Positions 27,888 to 59,551 of a stretch of DNA of 64,000 nucleotides are shown here, in pieces. Below the pieces are notes generated by a model that was given only the letters and a program-made list of their open reading frames with translations, did not search any database and was not told where the DNA came from. How positions within the stretch are numbered: the first letter of the stretch is position 1; each line of letters begins with the position of its first letter. The stretch covers positions 1 through 64,000 of the forward strand of contig JAKZES010000005.1 of NCBI GenBank assembly GCA_022548915.1. Reading direction: 5' to 3'. Source of the DNA: Verrucomicrobiaceae bacterium E54 (GTDB lineage: Bacteria > Verrucomicrobiota > Verrucomicrobiia > Verrucomicrobiales > Akkermansiaceae). The translations under genes and the position numbers were made by a program.

Positions 27888-28300
27888 GGGGGAATCAATA
27901 TCCAACAGCCAACAAGAAATATCCAATGTCCAAGGAGCGAGGCTATGATCTTGAGGAGAGGTTGATCGACTATTCGGTCAGGGTGATTCGGTTGTCCGAA
28001 GCGCTGCCTGACTCACGGGCGGGACGTCATGTCGGCGGACAAATGCTCCGTAGTGGCACCTCGCCGGCACCGAACTATGGTGAGGCTCAAGCGGCGGAGT
28101 CGCGGAAGGACTTCATCCACAAACTAAAGATCGCACTCAAGGAACTTCGTGAAACCAACATCTGGCTGAAGGTCATCCGGAAGTGGGAAATGGTCAGCCC
28201 CGTTTCGCGCATCGAACCCCTGATCGATGAAACCGACGAGTTGATCGCCATCATTTTCGCATCGATCCGCACTGCCCAAAACAATCAGGAGGAATCATGA
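27884..28300 (+). CDS. Four-helix-bundle protein (23S rRNA intervening-sequence type), inserted in the TonB operon
   Basis: The family body (YDLEERLIDYSVRVIRLSEALP, GTSPAPNYGEAQAAESRKDFIHKLKIALKELRE) is that of four-helix-bundle proteins encoded in 23S rRNA intervening sequences and as stand-alone ORFs. Translation could start at ATG 27884, coupled to the tonB stop, or at ATG 27926 (MSKERGYDL), the more family-like start; the residues between are encoded by a repeat. Inverted repeats flank it at 27897-27927 and 28318-28348 (26 of 31 positions matching). Its stop overlaps the next gene's start by ATGA, so the insert keeps the operon coupled. The molecular function is not established. Confidence 0.85.
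   Translation: MRGNQYPTANKKYPMSKERGYDLEERLIDYSVRVIRLSEALPDSRAGRHVGGQMLRSGTSPAPNYGEAQAAESRKDFIHKLKIALKELRETNIWLKVIRKWEMVSPVSRIEPLIDETDELIAIIFASIRTAQNNQEES
27897..27927 (+). repeat. Left inverted repeat of the four-helix-bundle insert
   Basis: This AT-rich 31-nt stretch (AATATCCAAC...AAATATCCAAT) is the inverse of 28318-28348, with the outermost 18 positions nearest the gene identical. It overlaps the candidate start codon at 27926. Confidence 0.85.
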
Positions 28301-29652
28301 CGCGTGCCGCCTTGGTTATTGGATATTTCTTGTTGATCATTGGCTATTGGGTCAATGCGGATGAGCCTTTGCCGGTTTCGAAGTCGTTTTGGCAGGACGA
28401 TGCCTTCGTGAAATCATTCAACGGCAGCTACCGGATCGAGGCGCGGATCGAACCGGTGGTTTCCACCGAGGAGAGGGGGCTGCTGTTGGAGGTGCAGAAG
28501 CTGATGGCGGCGGGAAACCGCGATGGGGCGTTGAAGAAGGTCGAGGACAGCAAGCTGACGTCGGATTCGGCGGCGTTGCTCTTCAATCTCGGAAACCTCC
28601 GGTTCGAGGAGGGCGAACTCGAAAAGGCCGGGGAGGCCTACGCCGCGGCGATCGAGAAGTATCCGGCGTTCCGGCGGGCCCATCGCAACCTCGGCCTGGT
28701 CCGGGTGAGGGAAGGGGACATCGAGAAGGGGCTGGAATCGCTGCTGGAGGCCGTGCGCCTCGGTGACTCCGACGGCACGACCTACGGCATGCTCGGCTTC
28801 TGCCGGCTGCAACGGGGGGAGTATGCGAGTGCCTTGCAGGCCTACCGGATGGCGCAGCTCGGCCAGCCGGAGTCAGCGGAATGGAAAGCCGGAGTGGCCC
28901 AGTGCCTTCAGAACCTGGATGCCCGCGCCGAAGCGGTGGCGCTGCTCGACGAAGTGATTCGCCAGCGTCCGACGGAGGCGGGATACGCCGTCCTGCAAGC
29001 ATCCCTGCTGATGGATCTCGATCGCCCGGAGGATGCGGTCAAGACCCTCGAACTGCCCCGGCGCCTCGGAGTGCTCGATCCCGATGGCCATCTGCTGCTC
29101 GCGGATCTTCACCTGAGGGCGGGGCGTGTTGAGAACGCGACGGAGATGGTCGAGGCGGCCTTCGCCGGTGAACGGAAGCCCGCGCTCGACCGGACGCTGG
29201 GGCTCGTCGCCGTCGCGATGAGCCAGGCCGAGTGGAAGCTCGCAGGAGACCTCATCGGCAAGGCGACGCCGGAAGAGGGGGACGTCCCGGTGGCGCTCAC
29301 CCGGCTCTCGGCCCAATGGATGATCGAATCGGAAACCGATGCGGAAGCCGGCGCGGAGATCCTGCGCGAGCTGCTTGCCAGGGACCCGAGCGACGGGACG
29401 TCCTCACTGGTTCTCGGAAAGCACGAGCTTGCGGCCGGCAATCCCGAGCTTGCCGAGACCCTGCTGCAGCGGGCGACCGCCGATTCGCTCTCCGCCTTCG
29501 ACGCCTGGATCGAACTCGCCCGTCTGCGGGTGTCCGGGGACCGCTATGCAGGTGCCCTTGAGGCCGTGGATGCCGCGCTCGAGATCGAGACCTCCACCGA
29601 GCTGCAAGCCTACCGCGAGAGCCTGGCCCGCCTGGTGGACGCCGCCCGCTGA
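28297..29652 (+). CDS. Exported TPR-repeat protein at the end of the TonB operon
   Basis: The 451-aa protein has an N-terminal export signal (MTRAALVIGYFLLIIGYW) and at least eight TPR-like helical hairpins from about residue 60 to the end (for example LFNLGNLRFEEGELEKAGEAYAAAIEKYPAF, LGLVRVREGDIEKGLESLLEAV). TPR proteins close many DUF3450-ExbB-TonB operons and probably scaffold the complex in the periplasm. The signal peptide is encoded by the right inverted repeat of the upstream insert, so the mobile-looking sequence replaced or created it. ATG 28297 overlaps the previous stop. Confidence 0.85.
   Translation: MTRAALVIGYFLLIIGYWVNADEPLPVSKSFWQDDAFVKSFNGSYRIEARIEPVVSTEERGLLLEVQKLMAAGNRDGALKKVEDSKLTSDSAALLFNLGNLRFEEGELEKAGEAYAAAIEKYPAFRRAHRNLGLVRVREGDIEKGLESLLEAVRLGDSDGTTYGMLGFCRLQRGEYASALQAYRMAQLGQPESAEWKAGVAQCLQNLDARAEAVALLDEVIRQRPTEAGYAVLQASLLMDLDRPEDAVKTLELPRRLGVLDPDGHLLLADLHLRAGRVENATEMVEAAFAGERKPALDRTLGLVAVAMSQAEWKLAGDLIGKATPEEGDVPVALTRLSAQWMIESETDAEAGAEILRELLARDPSDGTSSLVLGKHELAAGNPELAETLLQRATADSLSAFDAWIELARLRVSGDRYAGALEAVDAALEIETSTELQAYRESLARLVDAAR
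28318..28348 (+). repeat. Right inverted repeat of the four-helix-bundle insert
   Basis: This sequence (ATTGGATATTTCTTGTTG...) is the inverse partner of 27897-27927 and lies inside the 5' end of the TPR gene, where it encodes VIGYFLLIIGY of the signal peptide. Confidence 0.85.
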
Positions 29653-56881: not shown

Positions 56882-58729
56882 TTACTTCCAGAAAGTGGTG
56901 AAATAGACGACGAGGATCACTCCGAGGCCGAAGGTGAAGGCATAGCCCTGGAGGTTTCCGTTCTGAACCCGGCGGAACAACAGGCCGAAGGACACGGCGA
57001 GCCGGCTGGCGCCGCCGACAATCAGGCCGTTGATGATGAATTCATCGAAGAAGTGGACGAGGGCCGCGGCACCGTTCTGGACGCCGCGGACGATCACCCG
57101 GTCGTAGATCGCATCGATGTAGAACCGCTCGCGGAACAGCGGGATTGAAACGGGATCCTTGTCGCGGTTGCGATAGAGCAGAACGGCTGGAACCACCCCG
57201 GCGATCAGGGCGCCGAGCGAAATCCAGAAGAGGGCGTTGGGGTGGAACTCCCCGGCGTGCTCGGGGGTCGCCGGGGCGATGCTGTGGATGCCCGGATAGG
57301 CGCTCAGGATGGCCAGGACTCCCAGCACGGCCAGCGGCACCCACATGACCGGGCGCACTTCCTTGGCGTGATCCGAGTCGTCGCCGCGCGGCTTGCCGAG
57401 AAAGGCCACCATGATGACCCGCGTCATGTAGAAGGGCGTGAGCACCGCCACGACCACGGCCAGCCAGAACAGCGCCTGATTGTGCTCGGCGGCGTGAAGG
57501 ATTGCTTCCTTGGAAAAGAAGCCGGAGGTGAAGGGGACGGCGATGAGGGCAGCCGTGCCGGTGACGAAGGTGGCCCCCGTGATCGGCATCTTCTTCAGCA
57601 GGCCGCCCATCTTCCAGATGTCCTGCTCATGGTGGCAGGCGTAGATGACCGCTCCGGCAGCGAGGAAGAGAAGACCCTTGAACCAGGCGTGCGTGTAGAG
57701 GTGGAACATCCCCGCCTCGCCGCCGCCGAGCCCGGTGGCCATGACCATGTAGCCGAGCTGCGAGAGAGTGGAGTAGGCGAGCACGCGCTTGATGTCGTTC
57801 TGTTGGGTCGCCATCAGTGCGGCGAACAGCGCGGTCAGCCCGCCGACCCATGCGATGACGTCACCGGCGAAGGTGAAGGCGAAGTCCTCGCCGATGGAGA
57901 GCTGCACGCGGAAAAGCATGTAAACGCCGGCTGCCACCATGGTGGCGGCGTGGATCAGCGCCGAGACCGGCGTCGGACCCTCCATGGCATCGGGCAACCA
58001 CACGTGCAGCGGCATCTGGGCGGACTTTCCGATCGCGCCGCAGAACACGCAAAGCAGGGCCGTGCCCAGAATGATGCTGAATGCCGCCGAGTTCTCGGTG
58101 AAGAAGGCGGCGTGGTCGGCCTCGAAGCTCGCCAGGCCTTCCCTCATACCGTCGAAGACAAAGGTTCCGGTGATCCCGAAGAGCAGGAGGATGCCGATCA
58201 GAAAGCCGAAGTCGCCGATGCGGTTGACGATGAAGGCCTTCTTCGCGGCATCGGCGGCGGAGTCCTTCTGGTACCAGTGACCGATCAGCAGGTAGGAGCT
58301 GAGTCCGACCAACTCCCAGAAGATGAAGGTCATGATGAAGTTTCCGGCGAGCACGATGCCGGTCATCGAGAACATGAAGAGGGAGAGGCCGGTGAAGTAG
58401 CGGGCTTTCGCCGAATCGCCGGCCATGTAGCCGAGCGAGAAAATGTGGACCAGCATCCCGATGCCCGTGACCAGGGCCATCATCCCCGTGGCGAGTGGAT
58501 CGAGCTTCAGCGTCAGGTCGATGCCCACGCCGTCGCCGACCGCCATCCATGAGAACGAGGCCGCCGATGGTTCGTCCAGCCCCCACAGCACCAGGGCGAT
58601 CACGAAAGTGACCACCACCGATCCGGTCGACACCATCGACGCAATGAAGGCATTGCGCTTCAGATACAACTGGTTGGCCGCCGCGGCGAGCAGCGGGAGA
58701 AGGAGGAGGATCCAGGGGAAAAGCGACAT
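56882..58729 (-). CDS. nuoL: NADH-quinone oxidoreductase subunit L
   Basis: NuoL, 615 aa, is the distal antiporter-like subunit with the long lateral helix near the C-terminus. Motifs: MTFIFWELVGLSSYLLIGHW, AQMPLHVWLPDAMEGPTPVSALIHAATMV and FLFRRVQNGNLQGYAFTFGL. The GxxExxY insertion lies between it and nuoK upstream (505 nt from nuoK stop to nuoL start), which may affect its expression relative to the proximal genes. Confidence 0.97.
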   Translation of the reverse strand: MSLFPWILLLLPLLAAAANQLYLKRNAFIASMVSTGSVVVTFVIALVLWGLDEPSAASFSWMAVGDGVGIDLTLKLDPLATGMMALVTGIGMLVHIFSLGYMAGDSAKARYFTGLSLFMFSMTGIVLAGNFIMTFIFWELVGLSSYLLIGHWYQKDSAADAAKKAFIVNRIGDFGFLIGILLLFGITGTFVFDGMREGLASFEADHAAFFTENSAAFSIILGTALLCVFCGAIGKSAQMPLHVWLPDAMEGPTPVSALIHAATMVAAGVYMLFRVQLSIGEDFAFTFAGDVIAWVGGLTALFAALMATQQNDIKRVLAYSTLSQLGYMVMATGLGGGEAGMFHLYTHAWFKGLLFLAAGAVIYACHHEQDIWKMGGLLKKMPITGATFVTGTAALIAVPFTSGFFSKEAILHAAEHNQALFWLAVVVAVLTPFYMTRVIMVAFLGKPRGDDSDHAKEVRPVMWVPLAVLGVLAILSAYPGIHSIAPATPEHAGEFHPNALFWISLGALIAGVVPAVLLYRNRDKDPVSIPLFRERFYIDAIYDRVIVRGVQNGAAALVHFFDEFIINGLIVGGASRLAVSFGLLFRRVQNGNLQGYAFTFGLGVILVVYFTTFWK

Positions 58730-58750
58730 CGGTTGGTGGTCGGATTGGGG

Positions 58751-58775
58751 AACCGCAGATTACGCAGATTAATGG
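58751..58775 (-). repeat. Inverted repeat, nuoL side of the GxxExxY insert
   Basis: The 25-nt AACCGCAGATTACGCAGATTAATGG is the inverse of 59196-59220, with 23 of 25 positions matching. The stop codon of the GxxExxY ORF lies inside it. Confidence 0.85.
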
Positions 58776-59185
58776 GATTGACGGGAATCGTGACGCCGTC
58801 GCTGATTGATTACCCGACGCATCTCCAGCGAAGGCCTTCCAAAATTGAGGATCAAGCCCACTTCGAGGTTGGTCACCGCCAAATAGCTCAGAACCTGGGC
58901 GATGTGGGTTTCGTGAATAGAAGACGTGACCTTGTTTTCCAGAACCACTCTGTCATCGACGATCAAGTCCGTGATCAAGCGACTGACCACATGGCCACGG
59001 TAATGGACCGGGAAAGCCTGCTGCTGAGTGAAAGCAATCCCGTTTTCAGCCATTTCGATGCACATGGAGTTCTCGTAACTCTTTTCATCGAGTCCCGGGC
59101 CATGTTCACGATGCACACGCATCGCGAACCCGATCAATTGCTCGGTCAGGTCAACGTGAGGCGCGTTTGTCGGGTTTGGGTTCAT
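58769..59185 (-). CDS. GxxExxY-family protein inserted in the nuo operon
   Basis: The 138-aa protein (ATG 59185, MNPNPTNAPHVDLTEQLIG) has the family core GFAMRVHREHGPGLDEKSYE (G-x-x-E-x-x-Y) and a C-terminal half like a PD-(D/E)xK nuclease fold (LIVDDRVVLENKVTSSI; AQVLSYLAVTNLEVGLILNFG). A longer start at 59227 would translate the flanking repeat. Inverted repeats lie at 58751-58775 and 59196-59220. It is on the same strand as nuo, between nuoK and nuoL, so it rides on the operon. The function is unknown; a nuclease acting in its own spread is a guess. Confidence 0.85.
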   Translation of the reverse strand: MNPNPTNAPHVDLTEQLIGFAMRVHREHGPGLDEKSYENSMCIEMAENGIAFTQQQAFPVHYRGHVVSRLITDLIVDDRVVLENKVTSSIHETHIAQVLSYLAVTNLEVGLILNFGRPSLEMRRVINQRRRHDSRQSH

Positions 59186-59195
59186 GAATGGAAAT

Positions 59196-59220
59196 CCATC
59201 AATCTGTGTAATCTGCGGTT
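59196..59220 (-). repeat. Inverted repeat, nuoK side of the GxxExxY insert
   Basis: CCATCAATCTGTGTAATCTG and the following CGGTT form the inverse partner of 58751-58775. It lies 10 nt before the GxxExxY start codon and 13 nt after nuoK. Confidence 0.85.
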
Positions 59221-59233
59221 TCAGCAACTTGCC

Positions 59234-59551
59234 TCAACCCCGCATGCTGTTGAGGTCGTCGGTTTGGATCGTCTGCCGCGAGCGGTAGAGCGCGACGATG
59301 ATGGCGAGGCCCACCGCCACCTCGGCGGCGGCCACGGTGATCACGAAGAAGACGAGCATCTGGCCGTGGTAGTCGGGCAACCCATCCACCAGGTTGAAGC
59401 GGGAAAAGGCAATGAGAGTCAGGTTGGCCGCACTGAGCATCAGCTCGAGGCACATGAACATCACGATGATGTTGCGCCGGAGCACGACACCGGACAGACC
59501 GATCACAAACAGCAGACCGGAGACGAGCAGGTAGGAATGAAGGCCGGCCAT
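59234..59551 (-). CDS. nuoK: NADH-quinone oxidoreductase subunit K
   Basis: NuoK is a 105-aa three-helix membrane subunit: SYLLVSGLLFVIGLSGVVLRRN, IIVMFMCLELMLSAANLTLIAFS (with the conserved membrane Glu) and MLVFFVITVAAAEVAVGLAIIVALYR (second Glu). ATG 59551 (MAGLHSYLLV) is the family start. It follows nuoJ by 4 nt; the repeat-flanked insert follows it. Confidence 0.96.
   Translation of the reverse strand: MAGLHSYLLVSGLLFVIGLSGVVLRRNIIVMFMCLELMLSAANLTLIAFSRFNLVDGLPDYHGQMLVFFVITVAAAEVAVGLAIIVALYRSRQTIQTDDLNSMRG

Follow-up and report, generated by a model that had tools for sequence, protein, structure and literature searches.

The window, i.e., the whole stretch of 64,000 nucleotides that we analyzed, contains a small open reading frame (ORF) of the GxxExxY family at the junction between nuoK and nuoL, on the same strand as both genes and enclosed by a pair of 25-bp inverted repeats, which we refer to as arms. 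This arrangement had been predicted from the letters of the sequence alone, and our analysis confirmed it: the arms match at 23 of 25 positions and lie 420 nt apart, and the stop codon of the ORF (TAA, 58769-58771) falls within one of them, just as proposed. The original prediction also placed the start of the ORF just outside the other arm, and although a TTG codon does exist there, at 59227, the ATG at 59185, which lies inside the arms, is the likelier start. Read along the minus strand, nuoK is followed by 13 bp, the first arm, the GxxExxY ORF, the second arm, 21 bp, and nuoL (Table 1). The repeats exceed chance; the arm pair has a score of 19, and when the 64-kb window was subjected to 20 dinucleotide shuffles, the highest score at spacings of up to 800 bp was 16.

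Table 1. Features of the nuoK-nuoL element, its host genes, and the second element present in the window.
Feature	Position	Strand	Details
nuoL, downstream host gene	56882..58729	-	PF00361 E 1e-78, PF00662
Gap between element and nuoL ATG	58730..58750	-	21 bp
Arm at 3′ end of ORF	58751..58775	+	AACC + CGCAGAT (58754-58760) + CGCAGAT (58763-58769)
GxxExxY/PDDEXK_3 ORF	58769..59185	-	138 aa from ATG 59185; alternative TTG 59227
Arm at 5′ end of ORF	59196..59220	-	AACC + CGCAGAT (59211-59217) + CACAGAT (59202-59208)
Gap between nuoK stop and element	59221..59233	-	13 bp
nuoK, upstream host gene	59234..59551	-	PF00420 E 1e-30
PF05635 element	27896..28349	+	ORF from probable ATG 27926 to stop 28300
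PF05635 match (23S_rRNA_IVP, four-helix bundle)	27965-28255

The ORF is a member of the PDDEXK_3/GxxExxY family above both curated cut-offs, matching PF13366 (E 3e-34, 118 bits against a cut-off of 22) and TIGR04256 (E 2e-37, 128 bits against a cut-off of 35). The best structural match of the protein model (pLDDT 89, pTM 0.81) was Cas4 SSO0001 (Foldseek E 2e-4, TM 0.46; Z 9.7 over 100 residues), with lambda exonuclease and LHK-Exo as the next matches, i.e., the modelled GxxExxY protein resembles Cas4/RecB-type PD-(D/E)XK nucleases. The D, ExK, and QxxxY positions, which we take to be the named motif positions of Cas4/RecB-type nucleases, are present, and D, K, Q, and Y are invariant or nearly so across homologues, in a comparison that left out L150, which has an internal stop, as well as L120, L124, L132, L142, and L154. 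In the GxxExxY motif itself, G and E are invariant and Y nearly so among 17 sequences including the window copy. A search of the PDB by sequence returned a single weak, unrelated match and none that was convincing. Comparison of the window gene with PADLOC and PHROGs yielded no match to either, and on this basis we rejected a reading of the ORF as a defence or phage gene.

A second small ORF between inverted repeats, belonging to a different family and with a different repeat, had also been predicted in the window, and it is real: a PF05635 ORF lies between arms located at 27896-27935 and 28310-28349, which are 83% complementary. Tandem-repeat inverted arms were present around 29 of 40 PF05635 genes and in 0 of 39 controls, and these arms consist of unspaced units, e.g., AGTGGCT and AGAGAAC. 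Judging by these examples and by the junctions described below, the PF13366 and PF05635 families have a common plan and common junctions, with a different arm pitch. One further genome (G003) contains a PF05635 gene between nuoJ and nuoK, with arms of 44 nt.

The prediction that relatives would contain empty sites was borne out at the nuoK-nuoL junction, which is short and apparently empty in 25 of the 29 relatives' loci that we fetched, with 10-72 bp between the nuoK stop codon and the start of the NuoL match. The junction in the window measures 34 bp once the element is subtracted, which is inside this range, and a gap of 36 bp was found at a contig end in L040. The four longer junctions contain a PF05635 gene between arms with a score of 14 (G031), a stretch of 182 bp whose arms are weak (score 10; G006), and inserts of no assigned class (G025 and G033). 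We also matched the metH junction in 17 of 18 genomes of the genus (L369-L385), with metH fused in six of these and split in 11; a cassette, a remnant, or a scar is present in 9 of the 11 split genomes. Two split genomes have short junctions of 22 and 24 bp, five contain GxxExxY cassettes of three arm types, two contain remnants of 165 and 213 bp that lack an ORF, one contains a 74-bp stretch that retains an arm end, and one (G004) contains a PF05635 cassette. Read as variants of one junction, these sequences comprise empty, full, deleted, and scar alleles, and insertion may have caused the metH split.

Profile searches identified nine PF13366 copies in the window's genome, and our first scan located inverted arms of 23-35 bp at eight of them, with the ninth copy (L003) having a weaker arm pair of like design (score 11). 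We extended this survey to 146 PF13366 copies, taken from the window's genome, its genus, 80 named contigs, and 29 phylum loci. Arm scores of at least 12 were found at 124 of the 146 copies, with copies at contig ends scored as misses, vs 5 of 125 outer-flank controls, and scores of at least 15 at 113 copies vs a single one of the 125 controls. The value of 124/146 does not describe a random sample of PF13366, because the named loci were the best 80 of 547 by similarity to the window's clade and the phylum loci were picked by best profile score. The named contigs, among which L162 and L166 are a single sequence under two records, carry MAG labels of Planctomycetota, Hydrogenedentes, Omnitrophota, Acidobacteria, Bacteroidetes, Kiritimatiellia, Lentisphaerae, Neomarinimicrobiota, and Deltaproteobacteria, beside Verrucomicrobiota. 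PF13366 was also present in 3 of 14 control genomes from other bacteria and archaea. The window cassette appears to be a member of a widespread family of tiny mobile elements, seemingly undescribed so far, that insert between genes in many bacteria.

The PF13366 copies within the window's genome are divergent, with the others just 32-44% identical to the window copy and no pair among the nine reaching at least 75% identity, and because of this divergence the gene-bearing copies do not burst as insertion sequences do. Eight plasmids and a single phage, the latter present as two records, carry distant relatives, and hence no transfer vehicle was found. Two PF13366 copies on different contigs of another genome (L350 and L351 in G068) are 85% identical, a possible recent within-genome move, and this is the only within-genome pair of such high identity that we saw.

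The arms of PF13366 copies, as read by eye, often begin with AACC and continue with two or three short units, mostly of 7 bp (for example CGCAGAT, CACGGAT, CGCAAAG, CGCCAAG, CACGAAT, and ACAGGAT), at a pitch of about 8-10 bp. The letters vary between copies while the plan is constant, and one further arm type repeats GGAT. Integron attC sites came into consideration, as the arms start with AACC and finish with GGTT, and were set aside because the ORF sits inside the inverted pair. Boundary repeats of at least 5 nt, the sign of target-site duplication that we looked for, were present at 6 of 85 anchored elements (7%), equal to mismatched controls, in a test that could miss very short or degraded duplications. 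Many elements in one genome, G126 (L281-L298), are edged by T-runs and A-runs. The string CTGCCTCTCCGCC was found 10-14 bp outside one arm of a few G126 elements, and we dropped its reading as a target site since most flanks are without CTGCCTCTCCGCC.

Arm similarity was correlated with protein identity among 113 elements (r = 0.60, permutation maximum 0.19) and equally so among the 8027 pairs without flank homology (r = 0.59, permutation maximum 0.12). By these correlations, arm type follows PF13366 protein type, even at unrelated loci. A separate comparison of protein identities, which gave the cross-phylum pairs below, covered 20 added loci and L280, of which the flank-free correlation took those with stored edges; L349, L359, and L364 duplicate L200, L191, and L210 in this comparison, in the flank-free correlation, and in the same-site comparison, with L335 also duplicating L215 in the comparison of protein identities. 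Proteins that are 80-90% identical occur in MAGs of different named phyla, where mis-binned contigs are possible; for example, L117 (Hydrogenedentes) and L122 (Verrucomicrobia) share 88% protein identity. Nucleotide homology stops no more than 10 bp past either arm in 703 of 760 element pairs, and in 49 pairs it extends beyond the arms, as expected for a shared site. The homology edge lies in the arm zone on the left in 48 and on the right in 73 of the 760 pairs, and because homology in most pairs ends before the arms, its extent does not define the boundary of the element.

Twenty-nine pairs of relatives, one of which duplicates another, share an insertion site, and between the two members of such a pair the unit can change in both arms at once, e.g., CACTGAT in L113 and CACGGAT in L115. 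Arm identity within an element was higher than identity between arms of the same side in 25 of the 29 pairs, a figure that is favored by choosing arms via their left/right match. Joint changes of the units of both arms are also seen in the same-site pairs L083/L089 and L155/L158.

A genome-wide search for the repeat had been suggested as a check, and it located further copies, including ORF-less pairs of the window's arm type. These short pairs are present in the window's genome, where 10 of 12 candidate ends from six ORF-less loci match the 3′ end of the window element at 23-28 of 34 positions (the other two at 5 and 17) vs 8-19 of 34 at best for seven other copies there that carry the gene, the compared ends having been picked by arm-like pattern, which favors a match. 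One ORF-less element of the window's arm type (L019; G000:C200:132851-132956) is located directly upstream of a nuoK-like gene by the second NuoL homologue of this genome.

ORF-less pairs are numerous in G126, which contains 129 arms and three PF13366 genes. Among the 100 of these 129 arms that were listed, 32 neighboring pairs lie within 600 bp of each other, 26 of them convergent and 0 divergent; 25 of the convergent pairs span 71-223 bp, and the remaining one, of 495 bp, contains a PF13366 gene. All 18 of the ORF-less pairs that we read have the arm type of this 495-bp gene-bearing element. Six of the 18 also match it at 16-19 of 20 inner nucleotides, vs 1 of 900 in a shuffled control, and the other 12 share arms alone, with 9-11 of 20 inner nucleotides matching. 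Another genome (G245; C189:4915-5405, C198, C219, and C236) has same-orientation arms, many of them ~110-125 bp apart, resembling tandem ORF-less arrays.

At the level of whole genomes, a search of 240 genomes with a pattern that covers GAT/GAG-type arms only identified 1820 arms, whereas the same pattern reversed gave 34, of which 28 are in G041, a genome that is included in the presence, within-family, PF05635, and Y1 comparisons below and excluded from the count of 46 genomes. At least two arms were present in 93 of 135 PF13366-positive genomes vs 4 of 105 PF13366-negative genomes, and 31 of the 135 positive genomes had no GAT/GAG-type arm. The excess of arms in PF13366-positive genomes consists partly of the genes' own arms. 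Within families holding both states, the corresponding values were 47 of 67 and 2 of 92, a difference matched by none of 20,000 permutations. The 46 PF13366-positive genomes with at least 10 arms contain 1532 arms vs 187 gene copies, however, and 43 of the 46 exceed two arms per gene copy.

With regard to the orientation of insertion, the 104 elements with enough flank included 28 clear cases, of which 22 are co-directional with both neighbors and none is antisense to both. At a smaller ORF margin, 30 elements were co-directional with both neighbors, 2 antisense to both, and 11 mixed (n = 43), and at zero margin these values were 55, 6, and 43 (n = 104).

On balance, and with slightly better than even confidence, we take the region in the window to be a minimal mobile cassette of ~470 bp, consisting of an arm, the GxxExxY gene, and an inverted arm, and inserted co-directionally with transcription. 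Mobility of the arm-gene unit is well supported by these comparisons, because the gene keeps its arms at loci that are unrelated, because one studied junction occurs empty, full, and deleted, and because ORF-less arm pairs abound in genomes that have the gene. We further infer that the nuclease itself moves the cassette. In such a process, a single-domain, Cas4/RecB-like PD-(D/E)XK nuclease would bind the repeated units of both arms, draw both ends of the element together, and cut at or near them, and the element would then be joined to a new site by host repair. ORF-less elements with like arms would be moved in trans by the same protein, by analogy with the proposed role of RAYTs in moving REPINs. 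Expression of the GxxExxY gene would depend on the host operon, and this would account for co-directional insertions located close behind stop codons. Against this explanation stand the finding of no target-site duplication at the 85 elements, the 12 ORF-less elements in G126 that share arms alone, and the existence of PF05635 elements of like design without the PF13366 nuclease. The divergence of the gene-bearing copies within the window's genome, the PF13366-negative genomes with 5-20 arms, the PF13366-positive genomes with no GAT/GAG-type arm, and the less uniform orientation under looser ORF criteria also count against it. More tentatively, as a proposal that we judge somewhat likelier to be wrong than right, GxxExxY proteins could be a new class of DNA-mobility enzyme, a single-domain nuclease of Cas4/RecB fold for which two or three short, spaced units mark each end of the element, and which would mobilize both its own gene and, in trans, ORF-less derivatives without target-site duplication, the units of the two arms changing jointly as protein specificity drifts.

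The original prediction proposed a mobility mechanism shared by both elements and needing a helper in trans. The idea of two families holds, as they have plan and junctions in common and may share a mechanism, but an extra helper is not required by these data, although an unlinked or host factor may still take part: because arm type and abundance track PF13366, the enclosed gene seems to determine specificity for its own arms, and help would be needed by the ORF-less copies instead. The helper candidates tested were PF01797 and PF05635 only. Among PF13366-positive genomes, at least two arms were found in 89 of 124 with PF05635 vs 4 of 11 without it (p 0.04); we dropped the PF05635 protein as a helper for PF13366 arms, since PF13366 accounts for arms with or without PF05635.

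In the alternative that corresponds to this helper, an unlinked enzyme, e.g., a transposase of the Y1/RAYT type, would move a family of miniature inverted-repeat elements, with the GxxExxY gene as its cargo or as a partner. We consider this less likely, but it has several points in its favor: PF05635 elements have the same architecture and junctions without the nuclease, Y1 genes (PF01797) are present in 176 of the 240 genomes, and RAYT-like genes with terminal inverted repeats and matching repeat families are described in the accessible part of a published study (PMC3733652). In addition, three PF13366-negative genomes (G150, G177, and G186) hold 5-20 arms, for which gene loss, a missed gene, or another driver are possible reasons. 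However, at least two arms are as common in PF13366-positive genomes without Y1 (11 of 15) as in those with Y1 (82 of 120), and they are rare in PF13366-negative genomes whether Y1 is present (3 of 56) or absent (1 of 49). A Y1 transposase is therefore not needed as a helper, and the tracking of PF13366 protein type by arm type also speaks against an unlinked enzyme.

A less probable alternative, which we regard as improbable, is an RNA-level element comparable to the intervening sequences (IVS) of 23S rRNA, whose arms would pair in the transcript and be processed by RNase III, and which would spread via RNA or recombination. Co-directional insertion in operons would fit such an element, as would the likeness to the ORF bounded by inverted repeats in the Coxiella IVS, as far as it is described in the accessible part of PMC4990558. 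The window ORF is not an IVS protein, however, and an Rfam search of 58600-59400 returned zero matches. The arms themselves also argue against this alternative. Mismatches between left and right arms of 85 elements occurred at 76 of 1645 unit positions vs 110 of 316 spacer positions, a contrast that disappears or reverses once the mask is shifted as a control, and 43 of the mismatches were G.U-compatible vs 54 A.C, hence without G.U bias. RNA pairing was rejected as the selected feature of the arms because G.U mismatches are not enriched, and the concentration of mismatches in spacers, without such a bias, fits protein recognition of units better than RNA pairing. That the region is not mobile, i.e., a conserved regulatory hairpin module or an ordinary gene with chance repeats, vertically inherited, is very improbable: relatives do share some insertions at the same site, but 25 of 29 nuoK-nuoL junctions are short, the empty and full alleles at metH already contradict a vertical-only reading, proteins 80-90% identical occur across named phyla (mis-binning aside), and arms are largely confined to PF13366 genomes.

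Returning to the mobile cassette, we compared it with systems already described. It is like the 23S rRNA IVS (S23, PF05635) in having a single small ORF between inverted repeats, and the second element in the window contains PF05635 itself; the nuoK-nuoL cassette differs in its PF13366 ORF and in its site between protein genes rather than in rRNA, so neither the rRNA location nor the PF05635 ORF of an IVS is found there. Miniature inverted-repeat transposable elements (MITEs) are alike in that ORF-less elements with terminal inverted repeats are present and share arms, and some inner ends, with a gene-bearing element of the same genome. MITEs with autonomous insertion sequences differ, as the window family has no known transposase and no target-site duplication was found. 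The heptamers of TAACTGA type in Beggiatoaceae are intergenic tandem repeats with a patchy distribution across phyla, according to the accessible sections of PMC4679880; that paper describes direct repeats and a single indirect repeat, and inverted arms around an ORF are unmentioned in those sections.

Full-text literature searches yielded nothing on inverted arms or mobility for GxxExxY, which is weak evidence as most subscription journals are outside the search, and, with the same limit of journal coverage, no paper on PDDEXK_3; arm-like strings returned matches on other subjects only, judging by titles. If the reading as a mobile cassette is true, it would provide a function for a family annotated by its GxxExxY motif alone, and many of the short inverted repeats that occur in Verrucomicrobiota and in further environmental genomes, a large class, would have an explanation. 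The few enzymes that move DNA may also gain a member of the PD-(D/E)XK nucleases. The joint change of the units of both arms at the same site raises the question of how paired recognition sites change with their protein.

REPIN/RAYT systems (REPtrons) and TIRtrons share with the window family a small number of protein genes, many short ORF-less inverted pairs, and a link between repeat type and protein. The accessible part of the literature describes RAYTs as Y1 tyrosine transposases whose REPs are typically palindromic and GTAG-tagged; the window family differs in having PF13366, with its Cas4/RecB-like model, and arms of spaced units. The ORF of the window element contains PF13366 only, with no Y1/HUH transposase, and arms are abundant in genomes without PF01797. 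By eye, the arms contain no GTAG/CGTC-tagged palindromes and consist of AACC and short non-palindromic units, and REPIN-like inverted doublets are present as the convergent pairs of G126. Two Y1 genes in the window's genome (L065 and L069) are themselves located between REP-like inverted repeats of 39-46 bp.
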